Assembly: GCA_019671135.1 (NCBI GenBank)
Contig: JAHRHY010000003.1
Coordinates: 2,604,001 to 2,668,000 of the forward strand
From: Linnemannia hyalina
Taxonomy: Eukaryota > Mortierellomycota > Mortierellomycetes > Mortierellales > Mortierellaceae
Direction of reading: 5' to 3'
DNA length: 64,000 nucleotides
The notes beneath the pieces were generated by a model. The model was not told the DNA's origin, made no database searches, and saw only the letters and a list, made by a program, of their open reading frames with translations. Of the stretch, positions 15,111 through 23,634 are shown piece after piece (within the stretch, counting starts at the first letter, position 1; each line of letters opens with the position of its first letter). The translations under genes were made by a program, and so were the position numbers.

Positions 15111-15170
15111 TCGCTTTCTTTCTTGCTAGACAACATACCGATACGCCATTTCATATCCCCTAGTTTGTTT

Positions 15171-15190
15171 GTGGTGCAAATTTGCACCAC
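15171..15190. repeat. perfect 20-bp palindrome
   Basis: GTGGTGCAAATTTGCACCAC reads the same on both strands. It lies 61 bases after the Rab GAP stop codon and 180 bases before the piggyBac-like reading frame. It could be a transcript-end hairpin of the Rab GAP gene or a terminal structure of the neighbouring element; nothing seen decides between them. Confidence 0.8.
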
Positions 15191-15369
15191 ATTTTTTTCG
15201 ATTTATCCAGGTTTCCAATAAAACGGGTTAGAAGACTACATCGTGGGAGTGTCATTGTCGTCTTCGTCACATTACATTCATCACTCTCGGATTCAGCTCT
15301 TTTTTTCTCATCATCATCCCGCAACCCATTACCTTTTTTTCTCACACATCGACTTCACCCTACTCACTC

Positions 15370-16875
15370 ATGGACTCCAGTCTCGAGTTTCTCGGTTCCT
15401 TTGACGTTTCTGACTCTCAAGGCACCGTAGTAGCATCTGCGGAGGAGGTTGACGAGGCACAGGAGGAGGAGGAGTTGTTGTTTTCGGTCCGTTGTCGTAC
15501 TCGACCAACGCCTGGTACAGATAGCTCTGGGGACGAGGAGGAGGAGAAGGCAGGAGATGAAGGGGTGATAGATGCTCCAGCTCCACCGACAAAGAAAATG
15601 AAGGCTGCCAAGAAGGCTGCTAAGAAGCCCGTTCGTGAGACTAGAGAACTCCCGCCTGTACCAGATTTTCGACAATATCTTTCGCCACTACAAGGATGGA
15701 CACCCAGCACAATCCAACCTTCCCCGTGCTCTTCAACTCGACCAAGAACTGGCACCAATAAACATATTCAGCCTATTCTTCAGCGGCAAAGTATTTTCGG
15801 ATATGGCCACCTTCACTAGCGCATATGCAGCATCAAAAGGAGCCGGCACAGGAGAAGGATTGCGCCAATGGGTAAAGACCACACCTGACGAACTGCGCAT
15901 ATTCCTCGGCATCATTGTCTACATGGGCGTATTCAGGCAGAACACTGTCTCTGAGTATTGTTCAACCTTCCCTGAATGTCCTCAACACAACATCACTAAC
16001 TTCATCTCCCTCGTCCGCTTCGAACAACTGAGGCGTTTTTTTCATGTCTCCAACCCCAACGAACCTGAGCAACATTGGTTCTCAACGGTAGAGCCTGTGA
16101 TAGATGGGTGCATTTCTCTCTATGAGTTCGCTTCCTTTTCTTTTACTTAACGAAGAGAGTCACCACTCTTGCCCTCTGCTAGCCTATAAAAGCTAGCTGC
16201 GGACAATCGCCCGATCCACCTCAGGCTCTTACCGTGTTCTGGATGGACAATAGACCTGTCTCCATGCTCTTCACCGTCCATGCCCTCAGCCTCGGCGATA
16301 ACGACTGATCCGCTGTCTATGATCGCAGACGCCCTCGAGAGACAAGCGCCAACGCAAAGTCAGTGCGGGATGCTTATAAAGGACATTCCAGGGCGTTACT
16401 CCCCATCCCAAAAATCATCGATGACTACAACCACCACATGAACGGAGTCGACATCGCCGACCAGTTACGCAGCTACTATTCGACTCAGCTCAGGACTTAT
16501 CGCGCATGGGCTCCGATCTTCTTCTGGTTACTGGATACAACAATCATCAACGCGTACCTCATCAACAAACTCTTCGGCTCTTTCATGCATCACAGGGGGT
16601 TCCGACAGTTCCAAGCTAAGGATCTGATAGTGTCCGCCAAATGTCGCGACACCCCTACCCAAGTATCCCCTTATGTCTCGAAAAAATTCATGGGACCAAA
16701 CGATGAACTACTGACTACTCATGACTGGCTCCCATTTCCCCGTCCGAGTCAAGGACCGCCCCTACTGCATCCTGTGCAGATAAAAGAAACGAGAAGACAT
16801 AACACAAGCATATCCTCAACCGCCCAGCGAATCTGCTCTCTCTGCAAGGTTCCTCTTTGCACCAAAAATGATTGA
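15370..16875 (+). pseudogene. piggyBac-type (IS4-like DDE) transposase, broken
   Basis: The frame starting at ATG 15370 encodes an acidic, lysine-rich N-terminal tail and runs out of register near 15660. The next frame continues with the piggyBac N-domain (LFFSGKVFSDM, then TPDELRIFLGIIVYMGV) to a TAA at about 16148. After a gap, a third segment from about 16230 shows VFWMDNRPVSMLF, a TGA near 16306, then IDDYNHHMNGVDIADQLR and FFWLLDTTIINAYLI, hallmarks of piggyBac-like transposases. It ends with a cysteine-containing tail (CSLCKVPLC) at 16875. The middle of the catalytic core, including at least the first catalytic Asp region, is missing. So at least one frameshift, two stops and an internal deletion make it non-functional. 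TTAA target duplications could not be assigned. Confidence 0.85.
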
Positions 16876-17025
16876 GGAGTATTGTTACTCAGGGGAGAGG
16901 GTCGACGGCCAGAGTTGTAGGACCGCTGTTAGGTCCTCAATTGGTACGGAGGAGGGGAAGGGGTTGTAGGTTGGCGGGAGGGGAAGTGATAATAGCGTCC
17001 TAAAGGAATCACACAAAACGATATA

Positions 17026-17087
17026 CTGCAGCGTGCCAGCGAAACTCTTGTCAATACTGCTCTCGTCCAAGTGATGTGTAAAAGGAC
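17026..17087 (+). repeat. 62-bp direct repeat, copy 1
   Basis: This 62-base unit, beginning CTGCAGCGTGCCAGCG and ending GTGTAAAAGGAC, is repeated without visible mismatch at 17122-17183, start-to-start spacing 96 bases. It lies just after the broken piggyBac gene. Confidence 0.9.
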
Positions 17088-17121
17088 CTTGTATTCATAT
17101 TAATAAAGAGGGGGTTGTTAC

Positions 17122-17183
17122 CTGCAGCGTGCCAGCGAAACTCTTGTCAATACTGCTCTCGTCCAAGTGATGTGTAAAAGGAC
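17122..17183 (+). repeat. 62-bp direct repeat, copy 2
   Basis: Second copy of the unit at 17026-17087. The 34 bases between the copies are AT-rich and G-rich and show no gene. Identity over the full 62 bases suggests a recent local duplication or a sub-terminal repeat of a transposon. Confidence 0.9.
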
Positions 17184-17640
17184 AAAGAGCAGACAAGAGG
17201 GCTCGGCGCACTACTAATACTATGTCTACTAAAGGATATGACTGCTAACCTAAGGCATCGCCGCCACTGCCTAGCCACCACATCTTTTTGTAACAGTATC
17301 ATACGCGCCATGGGTTTTAGAATAGATTATCTCAAAGTGAAGTTAGAATTTTAAGGTCCTGTGCCCTCTCCACCTTGCATCGCGTGTTACTGCTACTATT
17401 AAATAAAAGAAAGATGCCAGCTCTCCAAGTTGTCCATTGTTGCGATGGTCTTCCTGAAATGGAAGAAGATGACACAGACGCTGGTGGTGATGCCGGTGCT
17501 ACTGATGTTGACGAGGATGTTGACGACGATGACGCCCTCAAGCGACCCAAGAAGATCATTTTCAAACCGGGTCATATTCAACTCTGCTGGTGATACTTCC
17601 TCCGCTTAGCATCTTCCAAGCGACTCCGGTTCTGCATTCA
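17184..17640. other. noncoding or decayed sequence between piggyBac relic and Fanzor relic
   Basis: No intact gene. A short acidic frame at 17414-17593 (MEEDDTDAGGDAG, then KKIIFKPGHI) may be a remnant of the acidic linker that precedes the Fanzor core, as in the complete copy near 21540-21640, but the match is compositional only. Confidence 0.35.
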
Positions 17641-17945
17641 GGCCAAAATGAGCGATTCTTCCATCGACATCAACGACAAAGCGTTGGTTGCGCTTCTCTG
17701 GGGAAGAAGACAGTTCAGCTAGACAACGTATAGAAGGACACCCGCTACACTCACAACTGGGCAGCCGCCAAACAGCGTTCTTCGTACGGAGAGGTGATCA
17801 AGGAACTATTCATCGGGGACCGGATGCCATCGAGGAAGCCAGGAACAAGCAGCAGACGACATACGGGAAGAGGACAACAACCATGGCTGAGCGTCAGGAG
17901 ACCCATCCACACATCTACGGACAGTTGGAGCTCGCGCGGTATTGA
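17641..17945 (+). pseudogene. short Fanzor-like relic, frameshifted
   Basis: Two overlapping frames together match one stretch of the complete Fanzor copy downstream. One frame gives SYGEVIKELFIGD (about 17780-17820). After a frameshift the other gives PDAIEEARNKQQTTYGKRTT and then MAERQETHPHIYG up to the TGA at 17943. The corresponding stretch in the downstream gene (about 21880-22010) reads HGELIRILFYGEPDEI and then QTSYGRRSTTM followed by NNHPAIF. The order and spacing agree, so this is a diverged fragment of the same protein family. No RuvC or zinc-finger part remains. Confidence 0.7.
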
Positions 17946-18233
17946 CGAGGAGGGTCATTTTTTTCTGAGAACGGCACAATGCCTCCCTTACGGCCAGTGG
18001 GGATCTGAGAGTTATTGGGTCGTAAAGCTAAAAAGGAGGGTGTACTAGGGCCATGCAAATGGCCTTCTCACAGGAAATGACATATGTGTCACAATCAATG
18101 ATTGTATCAAGGGATCAACTGAACCCCTCGCATGACCCTCGTCCTCCAACCCACGTAGGGAGCCGCGAGTCTATCAATGTTCAACGATCAAGGACATGAC
18201 GGCAACACATTGTCACCCGTAAGGACAGAGACA

Positions 18234-18241
18234 TATAAATA
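18234..18241 (+). promoter_or_regulatory. TATA box (TATAAATA) of the XPG-Fanzor gene
   Basis: TATAAATA lies about 400 bases before the ATG at 18640 and is followed by a pyrimidine-rich stretch and a spliced leader. The spacing to the leader intron at 18483 fits a transcript starting near 18265-18280. If right, the mobile gene brings or has kept its own core promoter. Confidence 0.55.
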
Positions 18242-18482
18242 AGGCCCCTCTTTCCTCTATTTCTATTTTTTCTTTCTTTACTTACTCCTTCCTTCCTCCT
18301 CTCCTACCTCTTTCCTCCTTTCTCTCCGTCTTTCCTTTCATCACCACCATTATACTATCACAAAGCAAAACAAAACATACACGTACACTCCTTCCTTTTT
18401 TCTCCTTTTCACTCGTTGCCAACACAAAACGCGTTTTGCTTTTCTTTACCGCCTGTCCGCCCAACCCACCCGCCACCGTCAA

Positions 18483-18576
18483 GTAAGTTGATGCAAGTTG
18501 CGAATGAACGTGCAAGTCGATGCAGGAAGCCCATGTATGGATCCTAACCATCGTTGTCGTTATTAATTTCCATTAG
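18483..18576 (+). other. probable intron in the 5' leader of the XPG-Fanzor gene
   Basis: A consensus donor (AA followed by GTAAGT) at 18483, a CTAAC branch site near 18544 and a CATTAG acceptor ending at 18576 outline a 94-base intron. It matches in size the four coding introns of the gene (91-100 bases). ATG 18640 is downstream in the next leader exon. Confidence 0.55.
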
Positions 18577-18639
18577 TCTAGCACGGGCCTCCATTCCTAA
18601 GAACACAGCGTAACATTTCTATTTCTACATTTTGTCGTG

Positions 18640-21600
18640 ATGGGAATCCGTGGCCTTCCCAAAGAGCTGCACGAGAGCGAGGGAATACCTGGGGGGTCTT
18701 GTAAGGATGCAGGAAAATCAACACACGTGGATTTCCTATGCCGCTTCTTCCGCTTGCTACAGGCACGTGCATTCCAAATTCTCCAACAACGCATCAAGGC
18801 CGGGTCTGACTCTGCCACAATCACGCCTGCCCCAGAGCTGCAGTTAGAGACCGAGGTGCCCGCAAGATCTCGAAAAAGGAAGAACATCGCCGAGCATAAC
18901 TCAACCCCCAATACCCCTTCCCTTGATGTCACCATTCCTTTTGATCCCAAACAGACATTGGATGAGCTGATCGAGGACAGTATTGATAGACTCGGCTACA
19001 AGAACCTTTTCCTCAACCCAGAAGGCCTGTCCCCTGTCGACAAGAAGAATCTGCAGGTAACCTACAATTGTGTTTTTACTCATTCCGTTAGAAGTGAAGT
19101 GCTCGCTCGCCTTGATTCCTCTAACCTTTGTTTTTTTTGGGCACATAACTTATTAGACCTTCCGAGCAGTAGGACACGTCCTGGATGATATCCTGTCCAA
19201 GGAATTCGACAAAGAGCTCACCATCATTCATGTGGACGGTTCACCATCAGAGCAGAAGCGAGGAGAACATCGGCAGAGAAACGCGACCCTAAAGCGAGCA
19301 CTGGACAAGCTACAGACGAAGGTCAGCGGTTCAACCCGGTCAACAAAGCAGCTCTTCAAGGCCTGCAAGAACAACTACCGCCTACCCGAGGGAGTCTCGA
19401 GCAGGATATCCTTCCGGTGTTGAGAGAGAAAGGCTGGCGGATCCACCTGTGCCCGTATCAAGCGGATACATGCCTCTCAAGAGTGTGTCAGGACGCCCCA
19501 GACCCCGACTCTGTCATGATCGTCACTTCTGATAGTGATCTAATTGTCTACGAGGGGATCCGCCACATCATGATGCCCGTGGGCAAGACGAGGGAGTTGC
19601 AGTTGTTCGACAAGACCAAGCTCCTGGACCGTCTAGATCTGCCGTCGGAACAGCACCTTCTCCTTGTCTGTATCGTAACCTCCAACGATTACGTGAAGAA
19701 TCTTCCGTACTTTGGGCTTCACAAGAACTGCGACATCATACGAGACTTTGATCTGACAAGCCTAGGGCCGCTGGGAGGATCTGGAGACAACGACCACAGA
19801 GCCGAGGCATTGATGCCGTTCATTCAAAACTACCTGGACGAAGTTGAGCGTCAACTGGGGAAACGGAAGAAAAGATCAATACAGCAGACTTCTACTCGAC
19901 ACAAGCAACAGGAAATCATCCACATTGGCCCGGAATATTATCGCCATGCAATCACCGCATTTTTCAAAAGGATGGAGAGGCCTATACAAGAACCGCTGGA
20001 GCAGGACGACGAGAGTCCTCACTCTCACGATATCATTACCATGATACTACAGGAACTGTACTCTCGCAAAAGTCAACAACAGCAGCCTCAGCAACCCAGG
20101 AACGACACCCACACCTTCACACAGCACCTACCACCAGAGCGAGTCCCGATCAAACTGTCTTCTACCAAGGACATGGGCATGGACACCGATACGAACATCG
20201 AATCAGCACCCCCGTCAACATCCACGCAATATGATTCCAAGACGATCTCCGAATGCACCCGGAAGCGGAAAAGATCCCTGAAACACAAGCAGCAGCGGAA
20301 GGATCGATTCAAGGCTAAGAAGTCAGAAGCCAAACACAAGCAGTGGAGAGAGTCACAGTAAGTTTAGTTACACTTTGAAGATGTTTCAAGTTTCGTTGAA
20401 TTCCTACGCTTCGTTGCAAAGTTCATTATTCCCAATACTCCTGTCAACTTAGGTTCAAATCAAGGACCGATATTCAGAAGAGGTATTCAGTCAGAACTGT
20501 CAACATCCACGACGCCCCAAACGTCGATGAGGCTGAGCTTTCCCATATGACTGTGCCTAAGCCTCGCTCCCAGAAACAGTCATCTCCGTCTATCAACAAC
20601 CCGGTCTCCGACAACAACGCCAAAGATACATCCAAAACAACAAGCGGTTCTTCGTCCCAGCAGAAATCCAGCGAAAACTCCCAACAAAAGAAGAAGAAGC
20701 GCAAACCTAGGAAGCGCAAACCTAGGAAGCCGAAGTCTGAAGTTGCACAACTTAAATCCGGATTCTCAAGCACCTTTGCAATTTCAACACAGACGATCGG
20801 TAGTGTTCTGGGGTGCCTACGGCGATCACTATTGCCGGCACGAGAGACTGGGCGACTTGCTAAACTCAGCGACGAGGATATCAAGGATATGGCGGTCAGG
20901 ATCGACTCGGCAGTGGCGACGATGGCAGAGGCCAGGATGTTTGTTTTTCGGGCAGTAGAGATTATGATCCTTGATCAGCTGTTGGGAGGAGAGGACATTT
21001 CGGGAGCACTGGATGCTGTCGCTGGCGAGGAGGATGCAGGAGAGCCTTTTGACGTGGTCGAGTTACTGTTGGAGAAGGCCGCCGGGACCGCTATTATCAA
21101 GCATATGTTCTCCTTCATCCTCAACGGAGAGATCGAGCGCGGTCGCCCTAAAACAGTCAAGGAAAAGTCCAAGGCGGCGAAGAACATCTCGAAGGCTGCT
21201 TATGATCGTCTCCGTCAGATCCTACCAGGATTTCGGCCTGTCAACAAGGACTCCATCTGCGTTGGACGGTTGATTGTTGATGCAGCGGCGGAATTCTCTG
21301 TTCAGCTGAGAAAACATTTTCGGGATTTGCCATTCACCATTGGAGCCAGGGTATGTGTCCATATACGTAGTGCTACATGATCCTTTTAGCCTACACCATT
21401 TTCAAATACTAACTCACAGTCCTTGCTCGACTCTTAAATAGATGTTAAAGTGTGGTTGGAGCAAGACCGACCTGCCAGCTGGATCATTTAAGGAGCAGCC
21501 GGGATCCCAGACTGTTGGAGCAATCCAACAAACTACAGCGGAGGAGAGGGATGACGATGACGACGAGAAGGACGAGGATGACGACGAAGAGGACGTAGAG

Positions 21601-23373
21601 GACGAGGATGAGGAAGAGGGCGACAACGATACCAGCATGCGATTTGCCGGTGGATACATCCGTCACTGGTGGAAAGAGGCCGAACGTCTGCCGCCGGCTA
21701 TGCGACCTCTCTTCTGCCTTCGACATAACTTCACCGATCCGTTCATCACATTTGAGGAGCGGGCTCTGCCGCCAATCCTGTGGTCCACGAGCAAGAAGAA
21801 TCCGAACCCGTGCGCTGCTGCTGCTTCCAAGATCATGGCCGCCAAAGAAGCATCCGCACTCGTCGAATTGACGCACGGGGAGTTGATCAGGATCTTATTC
21901 TATGGAGAACCAGATGAGATCAGGAAGTCACATTCCGTGTGGCAGACATCATACGGGAGACGCTCGACAACTATGGAAGCTCTTGCCAACAATCATCCGG
22001 CCATCTTTGATCCTAATATCCTTCACTCATACTTGGACAACAAGTTCCGCTTCATCAACTACGCCAGTGACTGTCGAGAGAAAGGGATTGCATGCGACAA
22101 GAGTCCCCCTCCCTTGCCGACAAGTCTCCTCTCACAGGATCCGACCCTATGCCCGCAACGATTCGCGCTCAACAACATCTTTTCGACAAATGGCAAGGAA
22201 CTCCATGTCACCTGCTTTGATACCACCAAGCCCTACAGGAGCAAGTTCGCCTTTAACCCTATCTATCGGATCGAAAACAGATTCCCAACACTACAATCAA
22301 TTCTGGACGAGTTTGGCGTGTCGTCTATCGAGGAGATTGATGTCTGGGGTATTGACCCCGGTGAGGTCAACACGGCAGCATTTTGTAGGATCTTGCGGAC
22401 CTATCTCACTTCAATTGACACCAATGTGGCGACAGATGATGACGCTGAACCGCAACATCGACGCAACGACCAAGCATCCACCAACAGCATCCTCCCTCCT
22501 GGTCTGGAAGCCAAGAATCTGGTCGTGAGCAGAAAATCGCTTTACCAGCCTGTGTTTGCCCATCGACATAAAATGCAGGATCTGTCGACAACGAGGATCA
22601 CCGTCAGTCCAGGTCAGACGATTGAGGGCAAGTTATGAGCCGAGCAGAAGGACGGGCAAGCGGATGGAGGAACGTCGATTCCGAGTATCAGCGAGATCCT
22701 GAACGTGCTGCCATCCCGACAATACCAACAAGTTGCAGACATGGAGCAATCCACGTTCCGATTTTTCCTTGTTCAGGATATCTTGCATGGATTCTATGGG
22801 TCTGCAAGAGTGAAAGCCATGGGCTGGGATCTGAAGAAGACCAAGAAGGCAGAGATGGACCTCGCCATCGATGCCATCCTCAGGGAGTGCACCACCAAGA
22901 CGCTATTCTGCTATGGAAATGGGTCCTTCCGTACAGGCATTAACCTCGCATCCCCCCATGAGTCCTTCAAGGCGGTCTTTGCGCAAAAGGTACGGTTTTT
23001 TCTCTATTTCCTGTTAGTTGTATTTGTCCGATACAGAAAGAACAAATACTGATCATATTCATTTTGTGCATTTTTATGAAAATAGGCTGTTGCTGCTGGG
23101 CACATCGTGGTGTTGGTCGATGAATACCTCACTTCAAGCATTTGTCCCACCTGCCTCGAGTCGAATGAGGTATCCCGTCTCGCCAAGCCTACCACGAGGT
23201 CATGCGTGTGCCTGACATGCGGAAGGTGGCTCCACCGCGATATTGTTGGAGCACACAACATTGCCGCTGCAGGCGAGGTTTGGATGCGGACCTTGACAAG
23301 GCCGACGCCTTTGAGTCGCAAGAGCCCAAGTGAACAGTCTGCATGGTCCCCTGACCTCCATAATTCGAACTAG
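18640..23373 (+). CDS. XPG/FEN1-type nuclease fused to a Fanzor RNA-guided nuclease (copy with one frameshift and one stop)
   Basis: Five exons: 18640-19056, 19157-20357, 20453-21350, 21442-22989 and 23086-23373. Introns are 91-100 bases and all junctions are in phase. The N-terminal half is an XPG/FEN1 5' nuclease: MGIRGLPKEL at the start, IIHVDGSPSEQKRGEH, then CPYQADT, VTSDSDLIVYEG and SNDYVKNLPYFGL, which supply the metal-binding aspartates. A basic linker (KKKKRKPRKRKPRKPK) resembles a nuclear localisation signal, and an acidic stretch follows. The C-terminal half is a Fanzor: WGIDPGEVNTAAF (RuvC-I Asp), FCYGNGSFRTG (RuvC-II), VDEYLTSSICPTC with a second CLTC pair (zinc ribbon), and HRDIVGAHNIA (RuvC-III Asp). 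Fanzors are eukaryotic relatives of TnpB that cut DNA guided by an RNA. Defects: a one-base loss near 19395 and a TGA at 22636-22638. With the lost base allowed for, the chain would be about 1,450 residues. Confidence 0.85.
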
Positions 23374-23382
23374 ACTAGTTAC

Positions 23383-23399
23383 CTGCGCCGAAAACGCAG
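23383..23399 (+). other. small hairpin just after the Fanzor stop codon (guide-RNA candidate region)
   Basis: CTGCG and CGCAG enclose a 7-base loop ten bases after the TAG at 23371-23373. TnpB and Fanzor guide RNAs usually come from the 3' end of the element, so this flank (23374-23634) is where one would expect it. A five-pair stem alone is weak evidence. The rest of this flank holds the 3' UTRs of two convergent genes and a GA/GT repeat near 23550-23590. Confidence 0.25.
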
Positions 23400-23634
23400 T
23401 CACCATTATCCCAGCGTTGTCCATTATTGACAGCCGAAGGGATACACGCCTAACTTCATGCATATTATTACCATCTCTCAGAGAAAAGAAAAAAAGAGTA
23501 GCATACACAATTTTTTGATCCAAAAACGTCCTTTTATTTGTCGCGTGCAGAGAGAGAGAGAGAGTGAGTGTGTGTGTGTGTGTGAGAGAGAGAAGAGACG
23601 CGAAGAACAATAAAAAAACGTTTCGATAAAAAGC

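Follow-up and report, generated by a model that had tools for sequence, protein, structure and literature searches.

A predicted spliced gene joining an XPG-type nuclease to a Fanzor in a mobile element of Linnemannia hyalina

We analyzed a 64,000-nucleotide stretch of the fungus Linnemannia hyalina (assembly GCA_019671135.1, contig JAHRHY010000003.1, forward-strand positions 2,604,001 to 2,668,000; hereafter the window, in whose own coordinates features are given), in which a forward-strand gene of five predicted exons (18640-23373) joins an XPG/FEN1/Exo1-type half to a Fanzor half. As judged from the sequence, the two halves very probably form one fused polypeptide. Our preferred reading, to which we assign a probability of roughly 0.6, is that this is a single spliced gene of a mobile element whose product, a chain of an Exo1/FEN1/XPG-type 5′ nuclease plus a Fanzor, is likely a cut-and-resect homing enzyme. 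What goes beyond the one fused reading frame is predicted or inferred.

The spliced frame and its conservation

Exon 1 (18640-19056) carries the start of the XPG half (MGIRGL..., with HVDF at 18724-18735), and exon 2 (19157-20357) carries its core and basic tail, including HVDG (19229-19240), QAD (19459-19467), DSD (19531-19539), and NDY (19684-19692). This exon closes with ...GAGTCACA at 20357 and is followed by a phase-2 junction intron (20358-20452, GTAAGT...TTAG) that is conserved in other families, with the donor GTAAGT starting at 20358 and the acceptor ...AACTTAG ending at 20452. GTTCAAATC opens the next exon at 20453; CA plus G across the junction form a Gln codon, and the frame continues as FKSRTDIQKRYS, without a Met. 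Exon 3 (20453-21350) comprises this FKSRTD segment, a basic linker, and the N-terminal helical part of the Fanzor half, exon 4 (21442-22989) the Fanzor core with the RuvC motif DPGE (22354), and exon 5 (23086-23373) DEYLTS (23119-23136), a C4 zinc ribbon, and HRD (23233-23241), with a match to PF07282 (E = 1.7e-10). A sequence-only reading of this DNA had placed the splice sites at 20357/20358 and 20452/20453, an unspliced TAA at 20359-20361, and metal-site motifs in both nucleases; the sites proved exact, with Gln rebuilt and the frame open without a start, the TAA is present, and the motifs were found in both halves.

Copies in the assembly were sorted into families A (the window copy and two sisters), A′, B, C, D, and E. 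Unbroken spliced models were obtained for B (1,334 amino acids), C (1,351), E (1,459), and A′ (1,460); the intron phases are 0, 2, 0, 0 in each of the four. Family D shares the junction. The phase-2 junction is followed by F[KR][SR]RTD in families A′, B, C, D, and E, and this segment is without a start codon in each family model. A phase-2 junction was also found in a deep lineage of the assembly, where locus L080 gave a spliced model of 1,292 amino acids, stop-free as far as the fetched sequence extends, whose phases of 1, 2, 0, 0 indicate that the junction intron and the next two keep their phase; a second deep-lineage locus, L081, has its frames in the same order. Since the junction with F[KR][SR]RTD recurs across families, annotated proteins of other species show the same protein join, and the deep lineage has a phase-2 junction, the join is more than chance, and a chance or local join was ruled out by this conservation.

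A Fanzor-core search of the assembly gave 64 matches (51 loci after merging). Of the 51 loci, 39 were preceded, within 4 kb, by an XPG match on the same strand; the other 12 comprise one deletion derivative and matches that are short or interrupted. PF07282 (TNB) was matched at 91 places. At 59 of them, the 6 kb upstream held a same-strand XPG match, compared with 2 places where it lay downstream and 2 where it was on the opposite strand. Reciprocally, TNB lay within 6 kb downstream at 59 of the 67 XPG places (68 matches minus one adjacent fragment; the search counts are lower bounds), and the 26 weakest XPG matches included 19 with TNB 2.2-3.9 kb downstream. The coding sequence was fully intact in 10 of 11 family C, 3 of 8 family B, and 1 of 2 family E copies tested, a count that left out a twelfth family-C place (C22:138521; XPG match, no TNB). 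The ten intact family-C copies lie at separate places and are about 99.1-99.98% identical. Within C and B, amino acid changes per site were fewer than silent ones in both halves; the counts are small and come from 10 of the 11 C copies and 7 of the 8 B copies, some of the latter broken. At the deletion derivative, L034 (C48:1493689-1497615), XPG and RuvC-region matches fall within one open frame of 576 amino acids.

Protein searches returned 88 homologues (14 with a family-C query, 9 with the A′ XPG half, and 65 with a deep query), each search scoring only about 7,990 candidates, which bounds any statement on fusion outside these fungi. The genera among the named homologues are, as we take them, Mortierella-type fungi; four homologues are metagenome or other records. 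Profile searches, for which 30 of these 88 proteins had supplied the XPG profile and 34 the Fanzor profile, found both domains in 58 of the 88, XPG first in all 58, and in 31 of the 33 homologues of at least 1,150 amino acids, superseding an earlier motif-regex count of 34/88. This is the opposite of halves that are always separate in homologues, the outcome that the sequence-only reading had named as fatal to its proposal, and the intact two-domain copies that it had sought in relatives exist as full-length single models from Linnemannia gamsii (1,321 amino acids; 76% identity, 97% coverage) and Entomortierella parvispora (1,313 and 1,363 amino acids). The model of L. elongata P0017, a relative of the window family, is joined at the same point (QWRQSQ/FKSRTD). 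Two annotated L. hyalina proteins that combine a piggyBac exon with XPG-Fanzor, P0005 (C6, 1,418 amino acids) and P0006 (C15, 1,479 amino acids), were set aside as likely mis-joins, because P0006 skips an XPG first exon that is present in L060 on the same contig.

The window copy itself is a decayed copy of the mobile element. A one-base frameshift near 19,385 disrupts its exon 2 frame, and exon 4 contains a premature in-frame TGA (22,636-22,638); neither lesion occurs in the two sister copies (contigs C5 and C1), although these carry a single stop apiece at other points of the XPG half. The frameshift sits in a short C run and is therefore possibly an assembly error. The single-gene view held as to one frame, one predicted protein, intact copies, and occurrence in other genera, while the gene turned out to be a passenger of a mobile element recurring across a fungal family, and the window copy, with its frameshift and TGA, cannot yield the full chain as read.

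The two nuclease halves

Structure prediction of the fused chain, proposed earlier as a check, gave fold matches for both halves within one predicted chain of a relative, the XPG half having the XPG/FEN1/Exo1 catalytic-core fold and the Fanzor half matching SpuFz. An initial fold of P0001 (1,161 amino acids, 14 sequences) was poor (predicted local distance difference test score, 54.4; predicted template modeling score, 0.39), with Foldseek returning SpuFz first and then Exo1, and it was replaced by that of P0048 (34 sequences). Identity to the Exo1, FEN1, and XPG (Rad2) nucleases is about 15%, the FEN1 fold match is no worse than that to Exo1, and sequence-only searches of the PDB gave weak XPG matches (E = 0.022 and 0.1). 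P0028 exceeded the Pfam cut-offs for XPG_I (28.1 versus 24.9 bits) and TNB; XPG_I remained under its cut-off in P0027 (23.5), P0061, P0048, P0058, and P0036 and had no match in P0024. In an alignment of 34 proteins, counting rows with a residue, Glu was kept at E163 in 27/29 and Asp at D165 in 29/29, and D182, D184, and D232 were kept in 27/29, 29/29, and 31/32, respectively; we assume for these residues the metal-ligand roles of their FEN1 counterparts. The XPG half is probably catalytically active.

The Fanzor1 motif, D-X(125-275)-[TS][TS]-X-X-C4-X(5-50)-RD as given in PMC3627910, is found in the window copy, whose exons were read one by one past the premature stop, with a spacing of 226 ahead of [TS][TS]..C4..RD, and in four intact models with spacings of 201-223. 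The TNB/OrfB zinc ribbon scored 41.3 bits in the window (PF07282 cut-off, 26.3). The Fanzor half resembles Fanzor1 proteins (SpuFz1, PpFz1, and GtFz1) in its RuvC DPGE, [TS][TS]..C4..RD motif, TNB zinc ribbon, SpuFz fold, and location as a DNA-transposon passenger. Described Fz1 proteins are mostly of 600-700 amino acids (PMC11423790), whereas the fused protein, with its N-terminal Exo1/FEN1-type domain, has about 1,190-1,460. Unlike Exo1, FEN1, and XPG (Rad2), the 5′ nuclease is here fused to an RNA-guided nuclease and has Gln at one ligand position in the window's family. Judged by titles and the openings of abstracts, the open-licence papers searched included none on a Fanzor or TnpB fused to XPG/FEN1; the text of PMC3627910 mentions neither XPG nor an exonuclease, and no fused 5′ nuclease appears in sections 6, 7, 10, and 12.

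The mobile element and its ends

The element spans 15154-23444 on the forward strand, with TA at both ends, TATCCCC plus a palindrome on the left, and CGAAGGGATA on the right. Its left end was set by eye, by likeness to loci L078 and L079, and its right end where the sister copies diverge, directly after GGGATA; by itself, the terminal 9-mer is not significant in the window (expected, 0.44). Both flanks are single-copy in this genome. Upstream of the gene lies a broken piggyBac-type transposase (15370-16875, forward strand; PF13843 DDE_Tnp_1_7, E = 1.4e-16 and 2.2e-7) with an internal loss and a broken frame, while family B copy L078 holds a full-length 563-amino-acid piggyBac-type open reading frame within its termini (E = 2.3e-62, 1-349/349). 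Families A, A′, B, D, and E include copies with a piggyBac-type transposase or its remnant upstream, and a match lies within 6 kb upstream at 27 of the 67 XPG places.

Right termini of 22 copies (families A, B, and C) read CGAAGGGAT followed by A in 22/22, and the host DNA beyond them differs, save in two copies with common flanks. Left termini beginning with TATCCC were seen in the window copy, three family C copies, and two family B copies (six in all), and a seventh, at C4:809693, may be part of a neighboring element. TA, not TTAA, stands on both sides of the six copies in which both ends were read. The canonical piggyBac target duplication is TTAA; because of the TA flanks, the element was not filed as a canonical piggyBac, although the DDE_Tnp_1_7 transposase within its termini (full-length in L078, broken in the window) is piggyBac-like. 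Fanzor-bearing transposons comprise Mariner, Helitron, IS4, Sola2, and MuDR in Bao and Jurka 2013 (PMC3627910); like those carriers, the present one bears a Fanzor1 on an element with a transposase or a non-autonomous one, the Mariner carriers having TA duplications, but it is of piggyBac type. We claim no novelty for a piggyBac carrier of a Fanzor.

The last 55-70 bases of five families fold into a hairpin followed by a UAUCC(C)/(G)GGAUA stem around an inner hairpin whose sequence differs. In the window, this predicted right-end RNA scaffold (23383-23444, forward strand) has a CTGCG/CGCAG hairpin and then a stem of TATCCC (23407-23412) and GGGATA (23439-23444) closing the inner hairpin. These are single-sequence folds, as a MAFFT alignment misplaced family B, with z values of −2.70 for A (window copy), −2.78 for B, and −3.81 for C. 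Scaffolds of Fanzor1 right-end RNAs are predicted to take in the inverted repeat and target duplication (PMC10711439); by analogy, a putative stem using the terminal GGGATA fits them.

A weak Fanzor match inside the element (17414-17707, forward strand; C23:2621414-2621707, E = 1.5e-4) was taken to be a relic of another Fanzor and was judged by eye to be like the family-D frame. Matches recur at the corresponding place in both sister copies, so the element looks composite in make-up. Between transposase and XPG gene, the window has a direct repeat of ~60 bp (17021-17190, ctgcagcgtgccagcgaaactcttg...). In family C, left ends vary and the right end is fixed: a subgroup with L076 (C4:811668) and L077 (C49:713416) starts on the left with TATGATAAGGACTG, not TATCCCTTCC, and the 5′ region of L041 (C23:186155 onward) has subterminal direct repeats of ~74 bp spaced 183 bp.

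Proposed role and rival explanations

Fanzors cut DNA, with the 3′ extension of their RNA as guide (PMC10432273). We propose that, as in other Fanzors, the right-end hairpins ending at the terminal GGGATA would form the guide scaffold and flanking host DNA would serve as the guide. Excision by the transposase would leave an empty site, which the Fanzor half would cut beside a target motif containing TA. The linked 5′ nuclease would resect the 5′ ends at the break or remove their flaps and so favor repair in which a sister copy serves as template for restoring the element. This resection and homing role, taken by itself, is tentative.

Several findings weigh against our reading. The annotated protein models are predictions, as is the window splicing, and none of the pieces taken from the window brings an XPG family up to its Pfam cut-off (XPG_I, 13.1 bits versus 24.9). 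No XPG match was found upstream at 32 of the 91 TNB places, which may be either diverged XPG halves or XPG-less Fanzors, and 8 of the 67 XPG places have no TNB downstream. A search for an empty site in this genome found none, the right-end folds of families D and E gain little over shuffles (z = −0.90 and −1.91), and the guide RNA and target motif are inferred only. To the same side belong the homologues with one profile, the Gln at a metal-ligand position, and the family C upstream regions, each of which bears on a rival below.

Two separate proteins could arise if the unspliced message stopped at the TAA directly past the donor, leaving XPG alone as a neighboring passenger while a separate Fanzor started downstream. 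Among the 88 homologues, 10 match just the XPG profile and another 20 just the Fanzor one, several of these 30 being labelled partial; yet XPG-only P0015-P0017 and P0022 run on through the FKSRTD segment, the conserved residues right after the acceptor come without a Met, the intron phase is constant in the families read, and most long homologues are fused. We consider this rival highly improbable. Still less credible is a dead pseudogene without current significance: it describes the window copy, with its frameshift, stop, and broken transposase, but is refuted for the family by the ten intact family-C copies.

Two further rivals accept the fusion, and both seem unlikely. In one, the XPG half has no catalytic role and positions the Fanzor by binding DNA or RNA. 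One metal-ligand position is Gln in families A, A′, B, C, and E and Glu in deep lineages, so that XPG activity could, on sequence grounds, be reduced in those families; the remaining acidic motifs are nevertheless kept there, and the five aligned acidic residues are near-invariant. In the other, which we rate no higher, an active 5′ nuclease either helps the transposase, by trimming flaps or gaps when the element excises or inserts, or trims the 5′ end of the guide RNA, and does not resect Fanzor cuts. The upstream transposase in many copies and the FEN1 fold match equal to that of Exo1 would suit such a service, but no piggyBac match lies within 6 kb upstream in family C or at the 19 weak XPG places with a downstream TNB, and piggyBac excision is not known to require such a nuclease.

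If our reading of a cut-and-resect fusion is true, one molecule both cuts a site and works on the broken ends, and nature would have joined an RNA-guided nuclease and a 5′-end-processing nuclease in an evolutionarily stable form, as engineers do by hand to steer repair. The fusion makes the service of a Fanzor to its transposon testable, since the second nuclease hints at break processing and not at cutting alone, and ten near-identical intact copies of one family are available from a single soil fungus. It is conceivable, if more doubtful than the homing role itself, that an entire lineage among the Mortierellaceae Fanzors consists of two-nuclease homing machines that compel copy-back repair of the element by breaking the vacated site under RNA guidance and supplying their own 5′ resection.
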